This document shows, piece after piece, positions 3,652 to 17,006 of a stretch of DNA of 21,531 bases. How positions within the stretch are numbered: position 1 is the first letter of the stretch; every line of letters starts with the position of its first letter. This stretch comes from a virus, in IMG/VR virus record IMGVR_UViG_3300044620_000417, positions 1-21,531 of that record. One strand, 5' to 3'. The notes below the pieces were generated by a model, which saw only the letters and a list, made by a program, of their open reading frames with translations, searched no databases and was not told the DNA's origin. Made by a program: the position numbers and the translations under genes.

Positions 3652-3878
3652 ACAGTTCACAAAGACGGAAGAGTAAAAGACAATTCCCACATGTGATTAA
3701 ACTAGTTGCAGGAAATGGTATGTACTTTTTTGAACATGATGACAAAGTAATGACCGCCCGTAATTGGTGTAGCCATAATTGCCGTGATGCTTATAAAGTT
3801 AATTCAGAGTGGGATCATGCTGTATTCAAATTTGTTACAGAAAGAGATGCGGTGTTGTTCGCATTGAAATGGTTATGA
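3648..3878 (+). CDS. Small hypothetical protein, 76 aa
   Basis: A 76-residue protein starting at 3648 inside the previous stop (ATGA); an in-frame ATG 12 bases upstream is less likely. The N-terminus is very basic (MNSSQRRKSKRQFPH), followed by a beta-rich region with WCSHNC (Cys/His) and a C-terminal FVTERDAVLFALKWL helix. Nucleic-acid binding is possible from charge alone. It overlaps the next gene. Confidence 0.65.
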   Translation: MNSSQRRKSKRQFPHVIKLVAGNGMYFFEHDDKVMTARNWCSHNCRDAYKVNSEWDHAVFKFVTERDAVLFALKWL

Positions 3879-4165
3879 TTTATTATAAAATTAGATACAA
3901 AGACGATCCTGATATGTATGTCAAGGGTACACCTGTATACTTGAGTTACGATAAGACTGGTCGCATCTTTCAATCACTAGGTCAACTTAGAACATTCTTG
4001 ACCAGTGTGATGAATGCAGATTCCCGTTATAGCAAGAGAGATGAAACACATAGCAACCGTGTAGCCGATTGGGAAGTCGTTGAACTTGAAATGGTAGTTA
4101 AGGACGTTAAAGGTGTCCACGAAGTTATCACTGCTAAGAAACTTAAAGAATTGATAATGAAATGA
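3875..4165 (+). CDS. Hypothetical protein, 96 aa
   Basis: A 96-residue protein from the ATG at 3875 (coupled ATGA); the frame is open further upstream but inside the previous gene. It contains RIFQSLGQLRTFLTSV, a helix that resembles those in small phage proteins with an FxSxGxLRxHL pattern, then a helix-rich basic C-terminus (TAKKLKELIMK). No enzyme signature. Confidence 0.7.
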   Translation: MIYYKIRYKDDPDMYVKGTPVYLSYDKTGRIFQSLGQLRTFLTSVMNADSRYSKRDETHSNRVADWEVVELEMVVKDVKGVHEVITAKKLKELIMK

Positions 4166-4410
4166 ATTACTTTGACCAAATATACGGAGAGCCTGAAGTG
4201 AGAATTGAATTTAAACCCATGCATCTGCCTTGCAGTGGCACAGCATATATTGATGACGGTGCAGGCTATGGTTATCGTTGTGACACTTGCAATGCTGTGG
4301 TGGGGTCTATCGGTCAACCTGCACAATGCAAAAACGAAGAACAGAAGTTTGAGAACTGGAAAAAGCTAGGTGGTAAGGGATGGGATTATGATAAGGGATG
4401 CCCAAAATGA
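4162..4410 (+). CDS. Small Cys-rich (zinc-ribbon-like) protein, 82 aa
   Basis: An 82-residue protein with LPCSGTAYIDDGAG followed by YRCDTCNAVVGSIGQPAQC. One Cys near residue 24 and CDTC around 40-43, plus Cys 56, give a likely single zinc knuckle or ribbon. The C-terminal WKKLGGKGWDYDKGCPK is Trp/Gly rich. It overlaps both neighbours. The role is unknown; zinc binding is inferred from Cys spacing. Confidence 0.65.
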   Translation: MNYFDQIYGEPEVRIEFKPMHLPCSGTAYIDDGAGYGYRCDTCNAVVGSIGQPAQCKNEEQKFENWKKLGGKGWDYDKGCPK

Positions 4411-8257: not shown

Positions 8258-10420
8258 ATGATTATCAACGCGGCACCTCAAAACGAAGCAATCATGTCCA
8301 ACGTGGGCGAGATTGGTGAGTTTCGCATTCGCAATAGTGCGAAGGCTTTCAACATTCTGTCCTCTGGTCTGTATGCAAACAAAATCCGAGCAATCGTCCG
8401 AGAATTGTCCTGCAATGCTGTGGACTCACATACGGCAGCTGGCAAGCAAAACACCCCCTTTGACGTTCACTTGCCCAACAGTCTCGAACCCTGGTTCTCA
8501 ATTCGAGACTATGGTACTGGTCTGTCGCACGACCAAGTCACTAACATCTACACTACTTACTTTGAAAGTACTAAAACAGCGTCCAATGAATTCATCGGCG
8601 CACTTGGTCTGGGATCCAAGAGTCCTTTCTCTTACACTGACAACTTCACCGTTACAGCGATTAAAGACGGTGTTAAAGGTATTTACACAGCCTTCATCAA
8701 CGAACAAGGTGTCCCATCTATCGCTAAAATGATGGATGAACAAACTACTGATCCAGCTGGTGTTGAGGTTCGTTTTGCAGTGGAAGAACGATATGACTTT
8801 GACAAGTTCCGTAGTGAGGCAAAGTCTGTTTACGAATACTTCAAACTGCGCCCAGTAATTTCTGGCAACCAAGAATTCCGATTTAAGGACCCTGAGTACA
8901 AGGAAAAAGATATCATCCCGGGTGTTCATTACTCAGGTGAGGGTAATAGTCGCCATTCTTACGCTATCATGGGTAACATCAAGTATCCAATTGACGTTCC
9001 TAACGCTGATAAGGCTCTTGGTGGTCTGCAAGGTCTGTTGGGTTGCGGTCTGGTTATGGAGTTCAACATTGGTGAACTTGACTTCCAAGCTTCACGTGAA
9101 GGTCTGTCGTACATCCCACAAACAATTGATGCTATCAAAAACAAATTGGTAGCATTGAACGGTCAACTGGCTATTCATATCGCACAAGAGGCTGACAAGA
9201 TCACCAACTTGTGGGAACGTGCTGATTATTTGGAAAAGCGTTATGCTGACAATTTGTTCTGTACAGCCGTGCAGAAGTATGTTACTGATACAAAGTTTGA
9301 ATTGTACTCTCCACAGCACAGTCGTTGGAATGCAAAGAAGACTTTCAAGTTTGAAGTAAAGAATTTGGCAAGTACTTACAACATTGCATTGCGTGGTTTC
9401 AGTAAGAGCCGTAGTTACAATGCATGTTCTACACTCAAGCCAACTCATGCTTACGACAATGTGAATGGGCAGACTGTATATCACGATGACTGGGAAATTA
9501 CTGTTAGTCCTGACGTGCATTTTGTTATCAACGATACCAAAGTCGGTGCTACTGAACGTGCAAAACATCACTGGAAGAATTCGGCCGATAAAGACCGTTA
9601 TAGTTCTAGTGTGTACGTGATTGAGGCTGCTGACAAGAGTAAGCCAGTAAACACTAAGGCTTTCTTCACTGCAATGTCTAATCCACCCGAAGGTAAAATC
9701 TTCCAAGCAAGTTCATTGCTTGAGAAAGATCGTGCTGGCGGTATCGGGCAGAACGTTACTATCATGCGATTGGAAGAAGGTCGTACTAATAGCTGGCGTG
9801 ATCGCCGTGAAATGGTATGGCGTGATGGTGGCAAGGCTGGCTCATTTGATGCTAAACAAACTTACTACTACTTGCCACTGAGCGGTTACAAGAACCTCGG
9901 TACAGTTGAGGATATCAAGAGTTTGGAAGTTCACTTGCGTACTAGTGGTATCTACACAGATCATATCTACGGCGTGCGTAAGGGTGATATCGAAAATATC
10001 AAATCTCAAAAGAACTGGGTTAACCTTGACGAACATATTAAGGGTAAACTGGCACTGTTGGGTCAGGCAGATGTGATGGGTTTGGTCAAACAAAGTATTG
10101 ACTGGAAAGAACTTTACCAGTATAATGCTACTAAGCATATTGCAGATAAAGCTAGTCCTTATATTGTGTTGTTTACTACATTTAAGGATGTGAAAGAATC
10201 TGACCAGAAGAAGCGTCAGAGTTTGGAATGGTTGTGCCGACAGTACAAAGTTGCAACGTCAACAAACATTGACCCAGCAACATTGATTGATAAGTACAAC
10301 AAAGAAGTTGAAGCTATCTTTAAGCGTTACCCGCTTATCAAAGGCATCAGCAAGTACAGCACAGAAGGTAAAGACCTCGCTGAGTATATTAATTTGATTG
10401 ACCAGACTAAAGGAGTCTAA
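8258..10420 (+). CDS. rIIA: rIIA-like protein, GHKL ATPase domain
   Basis: A 720-residue protein, close to the length of T4 rIIA. The N-terminus carries a GHKL (gyrase/Hsp90/histidine kinase/MutL) ATP-binding fold: N box RELSCNAVDSH with E49 and N53, G1 box RDYGTGLS with D84-x-G-x-G, and G2 box IGALGLGSKSPF (113-124). T4 RIIA acts with RIIB at the membrane and is needed for growth in hosts carrying lambda rexAB. The start ATG 8258 has AGGA upstream. It is followed without a gap by a 45-aa gene and then rIIB. The large middle and C-terminal region (residues 150-720) has no motif I can name. Family call is strong; the exclusion role here is inferred from T4. Confidence 0.9.
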   Translation: MIINAAPQNEAIMSNVGEIGEFRIRNSAKAFNILSSGLYANKIRAIVRELSCNAVDSHTAAGKQNTPFDVHLPNSLEPWFSIRDYGTGLSHDQVTNIYTTYFESTKTASNEFIGALGLGSKSPFSYTDNFTVTAIKDGVKGIYTAFINEQGVPSIAKMMDEQTTDPAGVEVRFAVEERYDFDKFRSEAKSVYEYFKLRPVISGNQEFRFKDPEYKEKDIIPGVHYSGEGNSRHSYAIMGNIKYPIDVPNADKALGGLQGLLGCGLVMEFNIGELDFQASREGLSYIPQTIDAIKNKLVALNGQLAIHIAQEADKITNLWERADYLEKRYADNLFCTAVQKYVTDTKFELYSPQHSRWNAKKTFKFEVKNLASTYNIALRGFSKSRSYNACSTLKPTHAYDNVNGQTVYHDDWEITVSPDVHFVINDTKVGATERAKHHWKNSADKDRYSSSVYVIEAADKSKPVNTKAFFTAMSNPPEGKIFQASSLLEKDRAGGIGQNVTIMRLEEGRTNSWRDRREMVWRDGGKAGSFDAKQTYYYLPLSGYKNLGTVEDIKSLEVHLRTSGIYTDHIYGVRKGDIENIKSQKNWVNLDEHIKGKLALLGQADVMGLVKQSIDWKELYQYNATKHIADKASPYIVLFTTFKDVKESDQKKRQSLEWLCRQYKVATSTNIDPATLIDKYNKEVEAIFKRYPLIKGISKYSTEGKDLAEYINLIDQTKGV

Positions 10421-10558
10421 ATGGACATTGAGAAAGAAGCAAAGGCGGCTCAGAAACGACTCGCTAAGTATATTGATAAGTTGACTGAGAAGGCAAAAGC
10501 CGATACAGCAAAAGATTTTGAACAAGCACGTAAAAAACTGAAAATTGAAGGAAAATAA
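10421..10558 (+). CDS. Small basic coiled-coil protein between rIIA and rIIB, 45 aa
   Basis: A 45-codon frame starting immediately after the rIIA stop with an excellent AAAGGAG ribosome binding site (10410-10416). The product (MDIEKEAKAAQKRLAKYIDK ...) is one long, Lys/Glu/Ala-rich helix. It ends one base before the rIIB start. Its tight placement and strong ribosome binding site argue that it is real. It may be a bridging or regulatory partner of RIIA/RIIB; no known function. Confidence 0.7.
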   Translation: MDIEKEAKAAQKRLAKYIDKLTEKAKADTAKDFEQARKKLKIEGK

Positions 10559-10559
10559 A

Positions 10560-11615
10560 ATGAGCTATCCGTTTATCATGCAGGGCAACAGCATTACAGT
10601 TGTTATTGGTTCTAAGCCCCACACAATCTCTAAGAGCCACATTACTTTCCAAAAGGTTCTTGACGCTATCAAGGCACAAGACTGGGACTTGGTTAAAGAC
10701 ATTATTGAGCCAGTCAAGGTTGTTCTCAACTATGGCAAGGGCAACGTAAGTGTCCAAGGTGAGGAATTGTTCTGGAAAGGTAAGCCAATGCACAACGCAT
10801 TGAGCAACCGAATGATTGCAATGTTGCAAGATGGCTTCCCTGTTGAACCTCTGGTCAACTTCATGGAAAACTTGATGACTAACCCATCTAAGCGGGCAGT
10901 CACTGAGTTGTATGGCTTCTTGGAAAAGAACAGCTTGCCAATCACTCCTGATGGTTGCTTCTTGGCTTACAAGAAAGTTCGTAATGACTTCTTGGACATT
11001 CACTCTGGCACAATGGACAATAGTGTTGGTAATATTGTTGAAATGGAACGCAATGAAGTTGATGACAACAAGGATCAAACTTGTTCAACTGGTTTGCACT
11101 TCTGTTCACAGGACTATCTGCCACACTTTGGCAATGGTTACGATAGCCGTGTTGTTATCTTGAAGATCAACCCTGCTGATGTGGTCTCTATCCCTAGCGA
11201 CTACAACAACGCTAAAGGTCGTGCATGTCGTTATGAAGTTGTCGGTGAAATCGGCAACGACGGTGACAAGATTGACAATGCTTTCAACAAGCCTGTGCAG
11301 TCTAACGCAAGCAACAACATCGCTAAACCAGTTGCCCCGGTAGCAAAAGCACCGAAGACTGGTTCTAGTGAATTCTATCGTGGTTACACTGATGGATATG
11401 AAAGTAGGGAGTTTTCTCCTGGTTTCAAATTCAACAAGGACTATCAAGAAGGCTTTGATAAAGGTGAGACTGATGCAGACTGGGAAGATGGTCCTCGCTA
11501 TCAGTATGTGAGTACACCGGCAGGTTGGACTCGACACAGTGATGGTAAAGTAAGTCCTCCACCAGGAACTACTTTTAATGCACAAAGTGGTGCATGGCCC
11601 TTCCCAACTAAGTAA
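10560..11615 (+). CDS. rIIB: rIIB-like protein
   Basis: A 351-residue protein from ATG 10560 (GAAGGAAA upstream; a TTG 15 bases earlier is unlikely). The core has the RIIB signatures: FMENLMTNPSKRAVTELYGF (about 98-117), FLAYKKVR, TCSTGLHFCSQDYLPHFG (about 175-192) and VVSIPSDYNNAKGRACRYEVVGE. T4 RIIB works with RIIA in the same phenotype. The C-terminus after about residue 260 is an unusual Gly/Tyr/Asp-rich tail (YRGYTDGYESREF ... DKGETDADWEDGPRY), longer than the T4 protein's 312 residues. The gene is closed by a clear terminator. The rII call is firm; mechanism is not known. Confidence 0.88.
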   Translation: MSYPFIMQGNSITVVIGSKPHTISKSHITFQKVLDAIKAQDWDLVKDIIEPVKVVLNYGKGNVSVQGEELFWKGKPMHNALSNRMIAMLQDGFPVEPLVNFMENLMTNPSKRAVTELYGFLEKNSLPITPDGCFLAYKKVRNDFLDIHSGTMDNSVGNIVEMERNEVDDNKDQTCSTGLHFCSQDYLPHFGNGYDSRVVILKINPADVVSIPSDYNNAKGRACRYEVVGEIGNDGDKIDNAFNKPVQSNASNNIAKPVAPVAKAPKTGSSEFYRGYTDGYESREFSPGFKFNKDYQEGFDKGETDADWEDGPRYQYVSTPAGWTRHSDGKVSPPPGTTFNAQSGAWPFPTK

Positions 11616-11661: not shown

Positions 11662-11690
11662 TTGACAATAAATGGATTTGGGCATATAAT
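11662..11690 (+). promoter_or_regulatory. Promoter with 12-bp palindrome at the start site
   Basis: TTGACA (11662-11667), 17-bp spacer beginning ATAAATGG, TATAAT (11685-11690). AATACATGTATT (11688-11699) is a perfect palindrome covering the predicted start at 11697, shared with the 7279 promoter. Confidence 0.85.
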
Positions 11691-12099: not shown

Positions 12100-12290
12100 T
12101 GTATACAAAAATGACTACTTACGAACGCATTGCCGAGAAACTACTGAAGGGTCAGCCCAAAGCAAAGAGATTCGGTCTATTCGACGGTAAGCGTTTTTGG
12201 ACAGGAACTAAGAGCCTACACCGGACAAAACAGTCAAGAATTTGGCGACTTTTTTGGCGATTAAAGTTTGACAGAAAAAGTAAAGTCTGA
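12099..12290 (+). CDS. Small basic protein, 63 aa
   Basis: A 63-residue, strongly basic protein (YERIAEKLLKGQPKAKRFGL ... RIWRLFWRLKFDRKSKV). The ATG at 12099 overlaps the previous stop (TGATG); a GTG at 12096 is an alternative. The C-terminal Trp/Arg helix could be amphipathic and membrane- or nucleic-acid-associated. Its last codons carry the whole next promoter. Two nearby copies of TTTGGCGA (12240-12260) fall inside it. Function unknown. Confidence 0.6.
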   Translation: MYTKMTTYERIAEKLLKGQPKAKRFGLFDGKRFWTGTKSLHRTKQSRIWRLFWRLKFDRKSKV

Positions 12291-12296
12291 TATAAT
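12268..12296 (+). promoter_or_regulatory. Promoter of the NadM/macro operon
   Basis: TTGACA (12268-12273), 17-bp spacer, TATAAT (12291-12296), inside the end of the upstream gene. Predicted start near 12303 gives a leader of about 56 nt. The spacer differs from the ATAAATG family. Confidence 0.8.
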
Positions 12297-12686: not shown

Positions 12687-12875
12687 ATGACAAAACAATA
12701 CGAAATCACTGTCAAGATTTTGGTCACCGTGCCCAATGACAATAGTTTGGGTATGAACGCGGATCAATGGGCCGGCAAAATTGCGGGCGACTGGGCAAAC
12801 ATGGCGCTGACTTACAGAAACATCGGTGCTGACGAAGTTGTGGAAGTAACTGCTAAGGAGGCAGAAAATGTCTAA
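12687..12875 (+). CDS. Small hypothetical protein, 62 aa
   Basis: A 62-residue acidic protein, MTKQYEITVKILVTVPNDNS..., with strand-helix-strand character ending VVEVTAKEAENV. It follows the previous stop by one base and overlaps the start of the NadM gene by 8 bases, so it is probably co-translated with it. No motif. Confidence 0.7.
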   Translation: MTKQYEITVKILVTVPNDNSLGMNADQWAGKIAGDWANMALTYRNIGADEVVEVTAKEAENV

Positions 12876-13890
12876 AAAATACGATACACTTGTCCTCATT
12901 GGACGCTTTCAACCCTTACACAATGCTCACCTTGAGATTATCAAACGTGCCACAGCATTGACTGACCAATTGGTCATTATCACTGGTTCGGCAGCACAGC
13001 CCCGTACTTACAAAAACCCCTTCACTAGCAAAGAACGTGCCAACATGATTAAGGACGCTACCCGCGGTCTTAACATGCATGTTTATGTTGAAGAAAACAT
13101 TGACACCATCTACAACGACCAAGCCTGGGCTATTCGTGTTCAAGGTATTGTTAGCAAATATCGTGTGCTAGGTGGAAAAGGTGTAGGTATCATTGGTCAC
13201 AAGAAAGATGACAGTAGTTTCTACCTCGATATGTTCCCTCAATGGGGTTACGAGAATGTGGAACTGATTGAATTCTTGAGTGCGGTTGACATTCGTGACC
13301 TGTATTTCAAGCGTGAAGTCAATATGAAATTCATTAAAGGTGTTGTGCCTGAATCAACATTTGATTTCTTGGATGAATTCCGTATCACACCCGAGTATGA
13401 GCAAATCATCAAGGAGCGTGAGTTCGTGGCTAACTACAAAAAACAATATGCTAGTCTGCCATATCCCCCAATCTTCTCTACTGCGGATAGTGTAGTGATT
13501 CAGTCGGGTCATGTGTTGATGATTAAACGCCGTAGCGAACCCGGTAAAGGCTTGTGGGCATTGCCCGGTGGTTATGTTAACGCTAACACTGACAAGACTG
13601 TACTGGATGCGGCCATTCGTGAACTGCGTGAAGAAACATTAATCAAAGTGCCCGGTCCTGTACTGCGTGGTAGTATTGTTGATAACCGTGTGTTTGATGC
13701 TGTGGATCGTAGCCCACGTGGTCGTATCATTACACACTGTTTCAAAATCGTATTGCCTGATGGTGAACTGCCAAAAGTAAAAGGCAGTGACGATGCTGAA
13801 AAAGCACGATGGGTTCCTATCGCAGAAGTGCGTAGTGAAGAATGTTTTGAAGACCACTATGACATGGTCATGTGGGCAGTTGGAGCTTGA
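12868..13890 (+). CDS. nadM: Bifunctional NMN adenylyltransferase / Nudix hydrolase (NadM type)
   Basis: A 340-residue two-domain protein. Residues 1-185: nucleotidylyltransferase with LIGRFQPLHNAHLEII (10-25; HNAH at 18-21 is the HxGH motif with Gly replaced by Ala) and the second motif PFTSKER (51-57). Residues 200-340: Nudix domain with LWALPGGYVN (229-238) and RELREETLI (251-259), matching the Nudix box core; Lys stands where a Glu usually precedes it. The N-domain joins NMN and ATP to give NAD+. The Nudix part in this family cleaves ADP-ribose or related compounds. AAGGAGG is an excellent ribosome binding site. With NadV at 15582 it completes nicotinamide-to-NAD+ salvage. Cytosolic. Confidence 0.92.
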   Translation: MSKKYDTLVLIGRFQPLHNAHLEIIKRATALTDQLVIITGSAAQPRTYKNPFTSKERANMIKDATRGLNMHVYVEENIDTIYNDQAWAIRVQGIVSKYRVLGGKGVGIIGHKKDDSSFYLDMFPQWGYENVELIEFLSAVDIRDLYFKREVNMKFIKGVVPESTFDFLDEFRITPEYEQIIKEREFVANYKKQYASLPYPPIFSTADSVVIQSGHVLMIKRRSEPGKGLWALPGGYVNANTDKTVLDAAIRELREETLIKVPGPVLRGSIVDNRVFDAVDRSPRGRIITHCFKIVLPDGELPKVKGSDDAEKARWVPIAEVRSEECFEDHYDMVMWAVGA

Positions 13891-13891
13891 T

Positions 13892-14104
13892 ATGAATGAA
13901 CGAATTCGACAACTTGCCCGTGATTCATACATGGTCGAAGTGGTGTGTAGCCAGAAATCCGTCAAGGTCAACTACCCCAAGAACTTTGAAAAGTTCGCCG
14001 AGTTGATTGTCAGGGAATGTTATCTGTGGGCCAAAGAAAATGGTGGCCTGGGCTGTGAGGAAGATTTTGAAGCGTTAAAAGAACATTTCGGAGTTGAAGA
14101 ATGA
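13892..14104 (+). CDS. MNERIR-type small phage protein, 70 aa
   Basis: A 70-residue protein beginning MNERIRQLARDSYM, containing KFAELIVREC (34-43) and ending HFGVEE. It is a paralogue of the 97-aa protein at 2445, sharing nucleotide-level identity in the same blocks. The centre differs (VVCSQKSVKVNYPKNFE). The frame is open far upstream inside NadM, but the ATG at 13892, one base after the NadM stop, is the natural start. Function unknown. Confidence 0.8.
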   Translation: MNERIRQLARDSYMVEVVCSQKSVKVNYPKNFEKFAELIVRECYLWAKENGGLGCEEDFEALKEHFGVEE

Positions 14105-14286
14105 CAACAATACCTTACGAACAATTAGAATACGGACCAATGGACGAAATTGATGCGGCTATTTGGAATGGCGATATGTTTCACAATCGTGATAACATTC
14201 GGGAATTTCGTGATATGATGGCACGGTGGGAACGCGGATTAAAAATGTGCGAAGACATCCTAAATGAAGTACCGGAGAACGAATAA
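14101..14286 (+). CDS. Small acidic hypothetical protein, 61 aa
   Basis: A 61-residue, Asp/Glu/Met-rich helical protein (MDEIDAAIWNGDMFHNRDNI REFRDMMARWERGL...). Starts in the previous stop (ATGA) and overlaps the next gene as TAATG. The pattern NIREFRDMMARWERGL resembles a helical segment seen in small phage proteins. No function known. Confidence 0.7.
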   Translation: MTTIPYEQLEYGPMDEIDAAIWNGDMFHNRDNIREFRDMMARWERGLKMCEDILNEVPENE

Positions 14287-14504
14287 TGAATGATGATATT
14301 TGTCTATCGTGTAAACATGGTGGCATTCACTATTGTCCGGATAAGAATGGTAATCCTATACCGAAAGGCAATCATTCATCCCCACCACCTGAATTACCAG
14401 ACAGTGTAAATTTCTGGACATATATTTCTTGTAAGAAAAATTTTGGTCTGCCTAAGGCAGCCTACATCAACAAGTGCCCGCTGTGGCAATCAAAAGGAAA
14501 GTAA
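14286..14504 (+). CDS. Small Cys-rich protein, 72 aa
   Basis: A 72-residue protein with CLSCKHGGIHYC near the N-terminus (Cys 6, 9, 17) and later SCKKNFG and NKCPLW (Cys 49 and 64). The spacing suggests one or two zinc or iron sites. Proline-rich middle (SSPPPELPD). It overlaps its neighbours on both sides as TAATG. Function unknown; metal binding is inference. Confidence 0.65.
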   Translation: MNDDICLSCKHGGIHYCPDKNGNPIPKGNHSSPPPELPDSVNFWTYISCKKNFGLPKAAYINKCPLWQSKGK

Positions 14505-15022
14505 TGAGACATTATACAAACACAGACAATCCAATTGACTTTCCTAAGTCGGCATTGAAGCATGTCAAAGGCAATCTACTGGACTTGGCAGAAGCAGGTG
14601 AGTTCGATATTGTAGTACAAGGCTGTAATTGCTTTAACACTATGGGTGGAGGCATTGCCCGTGAGATTCGTGAACGCTATCCAGTTGTGGCAAGTGTTGA
14701 TATGGTAACTCTAAAGGGAGACTACCGCAAGTTGGGCAATTGGACTGAATGCGATGCTGGCGAAAAGAATCGTTTTACGGTTATCAACGCCTACACTCAA
14801 TATAATATGAGTCGTGGCACTGATGTATTTGAATACAATGCGTTCCAATTGATTTTGGAAAAGTTGGCTTTTGTCTTTCCTGGCAAACGGTTCGGCCTAC
14901 CCTACATTGGATGCGGACTTGCCGGTGGCGAACAGGAAACTATCGTTGACATGATCGACGTATTTGCCAGACGAGTTGCCCTAGAAGGCGGCACAGTGAC
15001 ATTGGTGGAGTTTGTACGATGA
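14504..15022 (+). CDS. Macro-domain protein (ADP-ribose binding/processing)
   Basis: A 172-residue protein that is essentially one macro domain: HVKGNLLDLAEAGEFDIVVQ (24-43), GCNCFNTMGGGIAREIRERY (44-63, the Asn-containing ligand loop and Gly-rich turn), FTVINAYTQY (88-97), and LPYIGCGLAGGEQETIVDMI (126-145, second Gly-rich loop). Macro domains bind ADP-ribose and relatives; many phage members are annotated as Appr-1''-p phosphatases or ADP-ribosyl hydrolases. The start at 14504 has AAAGGAAAG upstream and overlaps the previous stop. Its neighbour overlaps by ATGA. Close placement to NadM and NadV suggests a role in handling ADP-ribose made when defence enzymes break NAD+; this is inference. 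Confidence 0.88.
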   Translation: MRHYTNTDNPIDFPKSALKHVKGNLLDLAEAGEFDIVVQGCNCFNTMGGGIAREIRERYPVVASVDMVTLKGDYRKLGNWTECDAGEKNRFTVINAYTQYNMSRGTDVFEYNAFQLILEKLAFVFPGKRFGLPYIGCGLAGGEQETIVDMIDVFARRVALEGGTVTLVEFVR

Positions 15023-15495
15023 AACATATCAAATCACCAGAGCTTTATTACAACGATAACTCTAACATCGGTGATGTATTCTTGGCAGGTTCTATTGAAA
15101 TGGGTACTGCTGAACCTTGGCAAGAACGATTGGTCAATGAGTTCAAAGACACTGATATTCGTTTCTTGAATCCTCGGCGTGATGACTGGGATTCATCATG
15201 GGTTCAGGAAGCAAGCAACCTTCAATTTTCTCAACAAGTTAATTGGGAATTGGACGCACTAGATTACAGCGACTTGATTGTATTCTATTTTGATCCAAAC
15301 ACTAAAAGCCCTATCACCTTAATGGAATTAGGACTCTACGCATCAAGCGGAAAAGTAATTGTATGCTGCCCGGATAGATTCTGGCGCAAAGGCAATGTAG
15401 AGATTGTATGCCAAAGACACCATGTAACTTTAGTTAACAGTTTTGATGAATTGGTCAGTGCTGTCAAGAAAGAAACTAAGTTTTGGGCAACATAA
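15019..15495 (+). CDS. Nucleoside 2-deoxyribosyltransferase-like protein
   Basis: A 158-residue protein matching the nucleoside 2-deoxyribosyltransferase-like fold: DVFLAGSIEMGTAEPWQERL (about 14-33), FLNPRRDDWD (44-53), QQVNWELDALDYSDLIVFYF (67-86) and the active-site-like SPITLMELGLYA (92-103), where Glu of MELG would be the nucleophile. Family members cleave or exchange N-glycosidic bonds, including in nucleotide-type substrates. It overlaps the macro-domain gene (ATGA), so the pair is likely translated together. A role in NAD+/ADP-ribose chemistry or nucleotide salvage is possible; the real substrate cannot be told from sequence. Confidence 0.82.
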   Translation: MKHIKSPELYYNDNSNIGDVFLAGSIEMGTAEPWQERLVNEFKDTDIRFLNPRRDDWDSSWVQEASNLQFSQQVNWELDALDYSDLIVFYFDPNTKSPITLMELGLYASSGKVIVCCPDRFWRKGNVEIVCQRHHVTLVNSFDELVSAVKKETKFWAT

Positions 15496-15499
15496 ACAG

Positions 15500-15528
15500 T
15501 TGACATTAAAATAGGTTAATGTTATACT
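15500..15528 (+). promoter_or_regulatory. Promoter of nadV
   Basis: TTGACA (15500-15505), 17-bp spacer, TATACT (15523-15528). Predicted start near 15535, so GTCCTAGCG (15537-15545) lies at about +3 to +11 of the message. Confidence 0.85.
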
Positions 15529-15581: not shown

Positions 15582-17006
15582 ATGAGACTCGGAAGACACT
15601 CTTTTGCAAAACTCGCAAAAAACATTATCTTGAACACAGACAGCTACAAAGTTAGCATGTTCAAACAATACCCAGCAGGAACTACTGGTGTATACAGTTA
15701 CATTGAATCCCGGGGTGGGCGTTACGATCAAACAGTATTCTTCGGACTCCAGGCTTTTATCAAAGAATACCTACTTGAACCCATTACCCAAGCAGACATT
15801 GATATTGCAGATGAAATCCTTACTGCCCACGGAGAGCCATTTAACCGAGCAGGATGGCAATACATACTGGACAAGCACATGGGATACCTCCCACTTGTCA
15901 TTAGGGCAGTCAGTGAAGGAACGGTTGTCCCTGTTAAAAATGTCTTGGCCACCATCGAGAACACAGACCCCAACGTCCCCTGGCTGACTACTTGGGTTGA
16001 AACTCCGATCCTCCGAGCAGTGTGGTATGGTACTACTGTATCTACACAAAGCAAATTCATTAAAAACATCATCACAGAGTACTTGGAGAAGTCAGGTGAC
16101 CCTACAACTATTGGTTTTAAGTTACATGATTTCGGCGCTCGTGGTGTCTCTAGCCTGGAGAGTGCTGGTATCGGTGGTGCCGCACACTTGGTTAACTTCA
16201 TGGGGACTGATACCCTCAGCGGTATACTGTTGGCTCGTGAATATTACAACGCTGGTGTTGCTGGTTTCTCCATCCCAGCCGCTGAACACAGTACTATCAC
16301 TAGTTGGGGTCGTGCCGGTGAAGTAAAAGCCTACAGCAACATGGTCAAGCAGTTTGGTGTACCAGGTGCATTGTTGGCAGTAGTGTCTGACAGTTACGAC
16401 ATTTACGAAGCATGCCGCATGTGGAGTACCGGTGACTTGAAACAACAAGTTATTGATAGTGGTGCTACAGTTGTTATTCGTCCTGACAGTGGTGATCCTG
16501 TAGAAGTGTTGCCAAAGATGTTCCGCATCTTGGCTGAAGGCTTCGGCTACACTACAAACACTAAAGGCTACAAAGTACTGAACAATGTTCGTGTACTGTG
16601 GGGCGATGGTATCAACCAGTTGAGCATCAAGTCAATTCTCAGCGTAATGGTTGACATGCATGGCTACAGTGCAGATAACATTGCATTCGGTATGGGCGGT
16701 GCATTGTTGCAACAACTTGACCGCGATACTCAAAAGTTCGCTATGAAGTGTTCAAGTGCAGAAGTCAACGGTGAATGGATTGATGTGTTCAAAGATCCAA
16801 TCACTGACCAAGTGAAAGCCTCTAAGAAAGGTCGTATCACTCTTTGGCAGTCTGGTGGTGAGTTTCAATCTAGTGTTGAACAACCAAAAGGATGGACTGA
16901 CAAGGGTATTGGTCCTTGGACAGAGGCACTGGTTGAAGTGTATCGTGATGGTAAACTCATCCGAGAATACACCTTTGACGAAGTTCGTGCGAACAGCATG
17001 AAATAA
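15582..17006 (+). CDS. nadV: Nicotinamide phosphoribosyltransferase (NadV/NAMPT)
   Basis: A 474-residue protein, the usual size for NAMPT. It makes NMN from nicotinamide and PRPP. Conserved segments: NTDSYKVSMFKQYPAGTTGV (18-37), YIESRGGRYD (40-49), LHDFGARGVSSLESAGIGGA (181-200), PAAEHSTITSWGR (232-244, with His236 at the place of the catalytic His of human NAMPT), VVSDSYDIYEA (267-277), VVIRPDSGDP (297-306, phosphate/ribose binding) and LWGDGINQ. The start has AAAGGAA upstream. It has its own promoter and terminator, separate from the NadM operon. Cytosolic, partner of NadM at 12868. Confidence 0.96.
   Translation: MRLGRHSFAKLAKNIILNTDSYKVSMFKQYPAGTTGVYSYIESRGGRYDQTVFFGLQAFIKEYLLEPITQADIDIADEILTAHGEPFNRAGWQYILDKHMGYLPLVIRAVSEGTVVPVKNVLATIENTDPNVPWLTTWVETPILRAVWYGTTVSTQSKFIKNIITEYLEKSGDPTTIGFKLHDFGARGVSSLESAGIGGAAHLVNFMGTDTLSGILLAREYYNAGVAGFSIPAAEHSTITSWGRAGEVKAYSNMVKQFGVPGALLAVVSDSYDIYEACRMWSTGDLKQQVIDSGATVVIRPDSGDPVEVLPKMFRILAEGFGYTTNTKGYKVLNNVRVLWGDGINQLSIKSILSVMVDMHGYSADNIAFGMGGALLQQLDRDTQKFAMKCSSAEVNGEWIDVFKDPITDQVKASKKGRITLWQSGGEFQSSVEQPKGWTDKGIGPWTEALVEVYRDGKLIREYTFDEVRANSMK

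Follow-up and report, generated by a model that had tools for sequence, protein, structure and literature searches.

A candidate ribose-specific glycosidase linked to NadV, and a separate macro-domain partner, in the NAD+ salvage region of a T4-like phage

Organization of the NAD+ region

We analyzed a 21,531-base virus record (IMG/VR IMGVR_UViG_3300044620_000417; the whole stretch is referred to here as the window), a fragment of a T4-like phage in which PHROG matches place rIIA and rIIB at 8258–11615. Two adjoining genes of its nicotinamide adenine dinucleotide (NAD+) region are the subject of this work, and these lie on the plus strand, as do NadM, NadV, the three small ORFs, and the promoter-like sites at 12268 and 15500 described below. 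The first encodes a 172-residue macro-domain protein with a Poa1p/DarG/TARG1-like fold (14504–15022, ATG to TGA), identified by PHROG, AlphaFold2, and structure matches. The second, here called DRT, encodes a 158-residue PF15891 "Nuc_deoxyri_tr2" protein (15019–15495, ATG to TAA), identified by Pfam, AlphaFold2, and structure matches. The ATGA at 15019–15022 is common to the end of the macro open reading frame (ORF) and the start of the DRT ORF. Upstream lies NadM-Nudix, a 340-residue nicotinamide mononucleotide (NMN) adenylyltransferase fused to a Nudix domain (12868–13890), and downstream lies NadV, a 474-residue nicotinamide phosphoribosyltransferase (15582–17006), both assigned by profile matches. 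The arrangement that the original prediction had read from the sequence, with macro and DRT overlapping by ATGA between NadM and NadV, was thus borne out in its positions.

NadV matched NAMPT_N (E 1.1e-27), NAPRTase (E 1.7e-54), and NF006629 (629.7 bits, cut-off 405). NadM-Nudix matched CTP_transf_like and NUDIX above cut-off, and the NCBIfam NadM-Nudix models aligned over its full length yet fell under their strict cut-offs. We take NARP2-type phage NAD+ salvage to consist of NadV plus NadM, as in the nadV/natV genes of Vibrio phage KVP40, and by these profiles both core enzymes, NadV and NadM with its Nudix domain, are predicted to be present in the window.

Three small, tightly packed ORFs (13892–14104, 14101–14286, and 14286–14504) bridge NadM and macro across 13892–14504, and none of them had a family match in Pfam or PHROG scans. 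Together with NadM, macro, and DRT, they form a close-packed array behind a sigma70-like promoter at 12268–12296 (12/12 matches, spacer 17, extended -10; a consensus match only), which is the predicted start of a NadM-macro-DRT unit. A second such site, TTGACA-17-TATACT at 15500–15528 (11/12 consensus matches), stands between the DRT stop codon and NadV. Against an expectation of 0.01 occurrences of the gapped promoter pattern in the window, two were found. Because the site at 15500 precedes NadV, shared transcription of all four genes is not a given, and NadV may be transcribed separately from NadM-macro-DRT. In all, four sigma70-like promoter sites in this region, at 11662, 12268, 15500, and 18288, agree with the consensus at 11 or at all 12 of the 12 positions. 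No RNA genes or riboswitches were found in the window at Rfam gathering scores, a tRNA search was also empty, and PADLOC anti-defense libraries returned nothing beyond weak DarG and PDC-S07 matches.

Fold and active-site residues of DRT

DRT matched PF15891 at E 1.8e-36 (125.1 bits, cut-off 30), and it matched PF05014 at E 6.5e-06, under that family's cut-off. The AlphaFold2 model, with a mean predicted local distance difference test (pLDDT) score of 94.2, was closest to 4mcj (Z 20.8), followed by YtoQ (Z 13.1), MilB (Z 11.5), and DNPH1 (Z 11.3). Over 4mcj, MilB, DNPH1, and the nucleoside deoxyribosyltransferases (NDTs), Z ran from 20.8 to 10.3, which places DRT in the NDT fold. The folds originally proposed for DRT and the macro protein were supported by the models and structure matches of both. 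A Klosneuvirus protein named as a Nudix hydrolase also holds a fold similar to that of DRT.

Residues F21, R53, R54, W76, and E103 are invariant among DRT relatives, F21 and E103 each being found in 67/67, and S97 is kept in 62/67. By motif spacing, from which the register of both E103 and S97 on MilB was inferred, S97 corresponds to the phosphate serine of MilB and DNPH1, a residue type that passages of the MilB and DNPH1 papers connect with phosphate. F21 falls on MilB F17, DNPH1 Y24, and NDT Y7 (from aligned ranges, assuming no gap in strand 1). DRT therefore has the three features expected of a MilB-like enzyme, a phenylalanine at the sugar position, a glutamate nucleophile, and a phosphate serine, and all 67 relatives have phenylalanine in place of the active-site tyrosine (Y7/Y24) that marks a true, 2'-deoxy-specific NDT.

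Parts of several papers bear on this position. The MilB F17Y substitution is reported to switch preference from cytidine monophosphate (CMP) to dCMP (PMC4081090), a passage in the DNPH1 paper states that the MilB phenylalanine allows ribose (PMC10603095), a ribosyltransferase is described as carrying Phe7 at the equivalent position (PMC7308715), and a section of a Thoeris paper makes the tyrosine-versus-phenylalanine argument for TIR, NDT, and DNPH1 active sites (PMC11204291). Because an invariant phenylalanine replaces the tyrosine of deoxy-specific enzymes, the name "deoxyribosyltransferase," which the original prediction shared, is probably wrong in its sugar specificity, and this point would correct a common annotation.

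Two DRT relatives were found fused to other domains. On one contig, a single ORF (L025:5950-6831) joins PF15891 (residues 17–120) to an Acb1-family 2H phosphoesterase (residues 163–291). Its HxT motifs were read by eye, PHROGs also name this partner RNA ligase, and no second DRT-Acb1-family fusion turned up, so that the fusion is known from this contig only. Upstream on the same contig, an ORF at 3793–4230 appeared SLOG-like by eye. In Tunturiibacter phage Tunturi_5, gp225 (L112:4950-8738, 1262 residues) combines PF15891 with ART-PolyVal and adjoins the portal gene, a position which suggests that the protein is possibly packaged and injected.

Linkage of DRT to NadV

To examine genomic context, we took the best 80 of 548 DRT loci, ranked by likeness to the window's DRT with NadV disregarded. 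NadV lay within 3 kb of DRT in 46/80 of these loci, in 36/60 of those with full flanks, and in 20/37 clusters at 80% identity. It was upstream in 31 and downstream in 15, always on the same strand (46/46). After collapse at 80% identity, 31 clusters had a contig of at least 40 kb; 25 carried NadV, 18 of them within 3 kb, against an expectation of 1.9 (standard deviation 1.3) with NadV placed at random. Collapse at 70% identity left 20 clusters, of which 16 had NadV and 12 had it within 3 kb, with 1.1 expected. In a phylogeny of 69 DRTs, of which 35 are NadV-adjacent and 31 are not, adjacency requires 13 changes versus a shuffled mean of 22.3, and repeated independent gain of the DRT-NadV arrangement appears likely but unproved.

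Other NAD-related genes recurred within 9 kb of DRT: a Prs-like gene, named via PHROG 619, in 31/80 loci, macro in 33/80, and NADAR in 9/80. PHROG 12872 aligns with a Prs-like protein at the start of the family and with the window's NadV toward the end, which suggests that Prs-NadV fusions exist. In one close relative of the window (L122:8103-10960), macro, a SLOG-like gene with a weak DprA-family Pfam match, DRT, and NadV stand in a row. Among DRT loci without NAD genes, a gene of about 425 codons often directly follows DRT (L138, L152, L167, L169, and L178); three such proteins were scanned with Pfam, and none had a match above cut-off. Ten neighbors of these NAD-less DRTs were scanned with Pfam: one is an R2K ATP-grasp and another a PDDEXK nuclease, three had weak or sub-cut-off matches, and five had none. 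PHROG searches with ten proteins, seven of them such neighbors, added little.

The linkage was also seen in named phages. By tblastn, DRT relatives occur in 45 of 50,697 phage records, from which we picked 16 representatives to avoid near copies. NadV-family genes were present in 15/16, those of Phosso and LR756501 matching at just E 1e-20 and 6e-20, and 9 of these 15 carry the gene no more than 15 kb from DRT, against an expectation of 1.6. The one phage lacking such a match, Lactobacillus phage 3-521, carries a gene annotated as an NMN transporter 4 kb upstream of DRT. As a background for the 15/16 count, tblastn over phage records of all sizes matched the window's NadV in 1899 of the 50,697, and the frequencies published in Iyer 2022 (PMC9503650) are 22% for medium-sized phages and 33% for jumbo phages. 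In the unrelated 469-kb Sinorhizobium phage Phosso, genes for NaPRTase (the NadV-family match), a Nudix protein, NMNAT, a nicotinamidase-like protein, and DRT lie within 5.2 kb, and profile scans found no family match for the gene preceding DRT (L118:4549-4995). Xanthomonas phage X1 has two tandem PF15891 genes (L111:4947-5878) adjoining a large tRNA array.

These results bear on the possibility that DRT acts on the nucleotide pool or in DNA modification, akin to DNPH1 in clearing deoxynucleoside monophosphates, and merely shares an early region with NAD genes. DRT has its fold in common with DNPH1 and the NDTs, and some phages place it near DNA ligase, DNA polymerase, dCMP deaminase, or tRNA genes. 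However, F21 is invariant where deoxy-specific enzymes have tyrosine, NadV adjacency is far above chance, and the NadV family is present in 15/16 named phages, and we therefore regard this explanation as improbable. Given F21 and the NadV link, a DNA-modification role was likewise not favored.

In bacteria, a single-protein search of genome contigs returned one locus, in Terrimonas pollutisoli, where genes for NrtR, a Prs-like protein, DRT, NadV, DUF4291, an unknown protein, NADAR, KptA, and a metallophosphoesterase run in one direction (L277:6334-12696). By its gene content, this operon is a predicted bacterial NAD and RNA-repair set.

The macro protein and its neighbors

The macro protein matched phrog_335 "phosphatase" at E 7.1e-35, and its match to Pfam Macro (E 0.013) was under cut-off. 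Its AlphaFold2 model (mean pLDDT 84.9) matched the uncharacterized BT1257 (Z 17.9), Poa1p (6lfu, Z 16.6), and DarG and TARG1 (Z 15.5 to 16.3). A loop alignment showed that the CNCxxxxGGGIA loop is common to the macro protein and Poa1p, so that the macro fold and the Poa1p loop occur together. Poa1p His23, which we take to be catalytic, aligns with Q39 in the window; the residue is glutamine in 26/37 relatives and histidine in 11/37. The protein likely either detaches a group from the distal ribose of ADP-ribose or binds that molecule.

We weighed whether macro and DRT might instead undo ADP-ribosylation that a DarT-like host enzyme or the phage places on phage DNA or proteins. The DarG and TARG1 fold matches and the weak DarG profile match are in keeping with this idea, but the match to Poa1p is equal or better, no ADP-ribosyltransferase was found among the 10 window proteins scanned, and no such role is known for DRT. 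We give it a slim chance.

In the best 80 of 101 macro-centered loci, NadM was within 3 kb in 56/80, NadV in 51/80, and DRT in 11/80. The best 80 of 114 NadV-centered loci had NadM within 3 kb in 74/80, macro in 42/80, and DRT in 9/80. Macro is thus a common member, and DRT an occasional member, of the NAD region in the window's phage group. Just 8/80 DRT-centered loci had macro no farther than 200 bp from DRT, and among the more distant named DRT phages macro is rare (phrog_335 in 2/16).

The original prediction had treated macro and DRT as a coupled pair within a four-gene NAD+/ADP-ribose module and had proposed a co-occurrence survey. Each gene is indeed non-randomly tied to phage NAD+ salvage, DRT-NadV proximity exceeding chance and macro being frequent beside NadM and NadV, but coupling of macro to DRT is not conserved. 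A conserved macro-DRT unit was therefore rejected in favor of two separate links, DRT-NadV and macro-NadM/NadV. The four-gene module exists in the window, as a local variant of a wider mix of Prs, NadV, NadM, DRT, macro, NADAR, and SLOG genes.

A further explanation, which had also been raised at the outset, is destruction of ADP-ribose-type immune signals by the two proteins: DRT would break N-glycosidic links, as in canonical cyclic ADP-ribose (cADPR), N7-cADPR, and His-ADPR, macro would bind or trim ADP-ribose adducts, and the ADP-ribose and nicotinamide so released would return to NAD+. Several observations speak for it, namely the fusion of DRT to a 2H phosphoesterase of the Acb1 family, to which the anti-CBASS enzyme belongs, the Tunturi_5 protein that joins DRT to an ADP-ribosyltransferase domain and is encoded next to the portal gene, and the recurrence of macro, NADAR, and SLOG neighbors, which, together with Nudix, a section of Iyer 2022 (PMC9503650) predicts to be processors of ADP-ribose signals. 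DRT nevertheless tracks NadV rather than macro, the Terrimonas operon is a cellular NAD and RNA-repair set with an NrtR-type regulator rather than a phage counter-defense, and the Acb1-like partner, also called RNA ligase by PHROGs, is fused to DRT on one contig only. We consider signal destruction rather unlikely, yet worth keeping in view.

Proposed roles of DRT and macro

The reading that we tentatively prefer, with a chance a little short of even, is that DRT is a ribose-specific N-glycosidase serving NadV and that macro is a second, independent accessory of NadM-plus-NadV salvage. For DRT, we adopt it because of the MilB/DNPH1-like fold, the invariant phenylalanine, and the NadV linkage. 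What the analysis shows directly is gene order, family membership, predicted folds, residue conservation, and linkage to NadV; the catalysis, sugar specificity, substrates, and metabolite flow that we infer from these are as follows. A NARP2-type salvage set, NadM plus NadV, would be served by two independent accessory enzymes, DRT and macro. DRT would be an N-glycosidase with the MilB/DNPH1/NDT fold and a retaining mechanism, E103 serving as its covalent nucleophile, and its site would suit ribose and not deoxyribose. It would split a ribonucleoside or ribonucleotide, most likely a leftover of NAD+ breakdown, to yield inputs for NadV: nicotinamide, ribose-5-phosphate, or both. A phage or host phosphoribosyl pyrophosphate (PRPP) synthetase could convert ribose-5-phosphate to PRPP. 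Macro, Poa1p/DarG-like, would strip groups from the distal ribose of ADP-ribose, which the Nudix domain of NadM could then cleave to AMP and ribose-5-phosphate.

Several results weigh against this proposal. At the active site, MilB Arg23, a phosphate/base contact, corresponds to E27 in DRT (register from aligned ranges), and this glutamate is found in 65/67 relatives; R23E is described as the worst MilB mutant in a passage of PMC4081090. The exchange argues against a plain MilB-like 5'-phosphate site for an ordinary nucleoside monophosphate, and we found no PF15891 protein with an established substrate. Genomically, 34/80 DRT loci had no NadV within 3 kb and 25/80 had no NadV, Prs, NadM, macro, or NADAR within 9 kb (some contigs being short), and these 80 loci are the ones most like the window's DRT. 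The strongly supported branches of the DRT tree force just one change in NadV adjacency, and phrog_619 Prs was present in only 4/16 named DRT phages, so that phage PRPP supply is no constant partner. Bacterial plasmids gave five DRT matches, and the three loci that we looked at count against DRT as a universal NadV partner. By annotation, the Bernardetia DRT has no adjoining NAD salvage gene, with a Sir2 gene on the opposite strand, and the Parabacteroides DRT follows pentose-phosphate genes with no NAD salvage gene adjoining; at the unannotated Novosphingobium locus, no profile match was found to NadV, NadM, Prs, macro, or NADAR.

Another view is that DRT is a ribosyl-transfer enzyme running TIR chemistry backwards. 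Its glutamate would accept ADP-ribose from an N-glycosidic immune signal or a breakdown product, and transfer to nicotinamide would then give NAD+ directly, while NadV and NadM rebuild the remaining NAD+. This could be argued because Phe21 permits ribose, because the gene tracks nicotinamide salvage and not macro, and because the near-invariant acid E27, which occupies the base-reading position of DNPH1, might accommodate a base that is cationic. NDT family members are, moreover, transferases by nature. If true, phages would have in DRT a third way to NAD+, alongside NARP1 and NARP2; we hold this to be very unlikely.

Phage NAD+ rebuilding is a main answer to NAD+-destroying immunity. Should the DRT family prove a regular companion of NadV, both in large phages and in the NrtR operon of a bacterium, the two-enzyme pathway as now described would be incomplete. 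Its substrate would reveal what phages recycle after NAD+ breakage and may expose a new way of erasing nucleotide immune signals.

Comparison with known systems

What is probably new here is NAD+ salvage with a predicted ribose-cleaving partner, DRT. Novelty of the module as a whole, which had been suggested, holds only in part: our literature searches found no paper tying PF15891 to phage NAD+ salvage, but macro beside NadV/NadM was partly anticipated by Iyer 2022 (PMC9503650), passages of which name NADAR with NadM/NadV and describe macro, NADAR, and SLOG combinations. According to those passages, the only deoxyribohydrolase (DrHyd) superfamily members in viruses are ADP-ribosyl cyclases. 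Phage NAD+ synthesis genes are likewise described without DRT in part of a jumbo-phage survey (PMC7824862).

Like NARP2-type salvage (a name that occurs in a portion of PMC12028318), the window has both NadV and NadM; it differs in its inserted macro and DRT genes, and related loci add Prs, NADAR, and SLOG. Closest by analogy to DRT, we suggest, is RyDEP, which part of PMC13232231 places in NARP1 operons and which is thus also a glycosidase gene inside a phage NAD+ rebuilding operon. RyDEP, however, has a RyR domain and demonstrated O-glycosidase activity, whereas DRT belongs to the NDT/TIR-like Rossmann group and is a predicted glycosidase. The Barba19A phages of Rheinheimera have consecutive NaPRTase, Prs, and macro genes; among the gene rows covered from PMC6715854 there is no DRT, and there the genes are not discussed as a module.

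At the protein level, DRT shares its fold, glutamate nucleophile, and Ser97 with MilB, a CMP/hydroxymethyl-CMP N-glycosidase, and with DNPH1, and its phenylalanine is that of MilB. It is unlike both in having E27 for MilB Arg23, NPRR and WE signatures, and only 12 to 17% identity. The closest solved structure, 4mcj, is Parabacteroides BDI_0649, a PF15891-like protein with 36% identity over 141 residues; it is bacterial, and its entry title names no function. Macro, for its part, shares its fold with the ADP-ribose-1''-phosphatase Poa1p and with DarG and TARG1, and its CNCxxxxGGGIA loop with Poa1p, from which it departs at Q39, the position of Poa1p His23.
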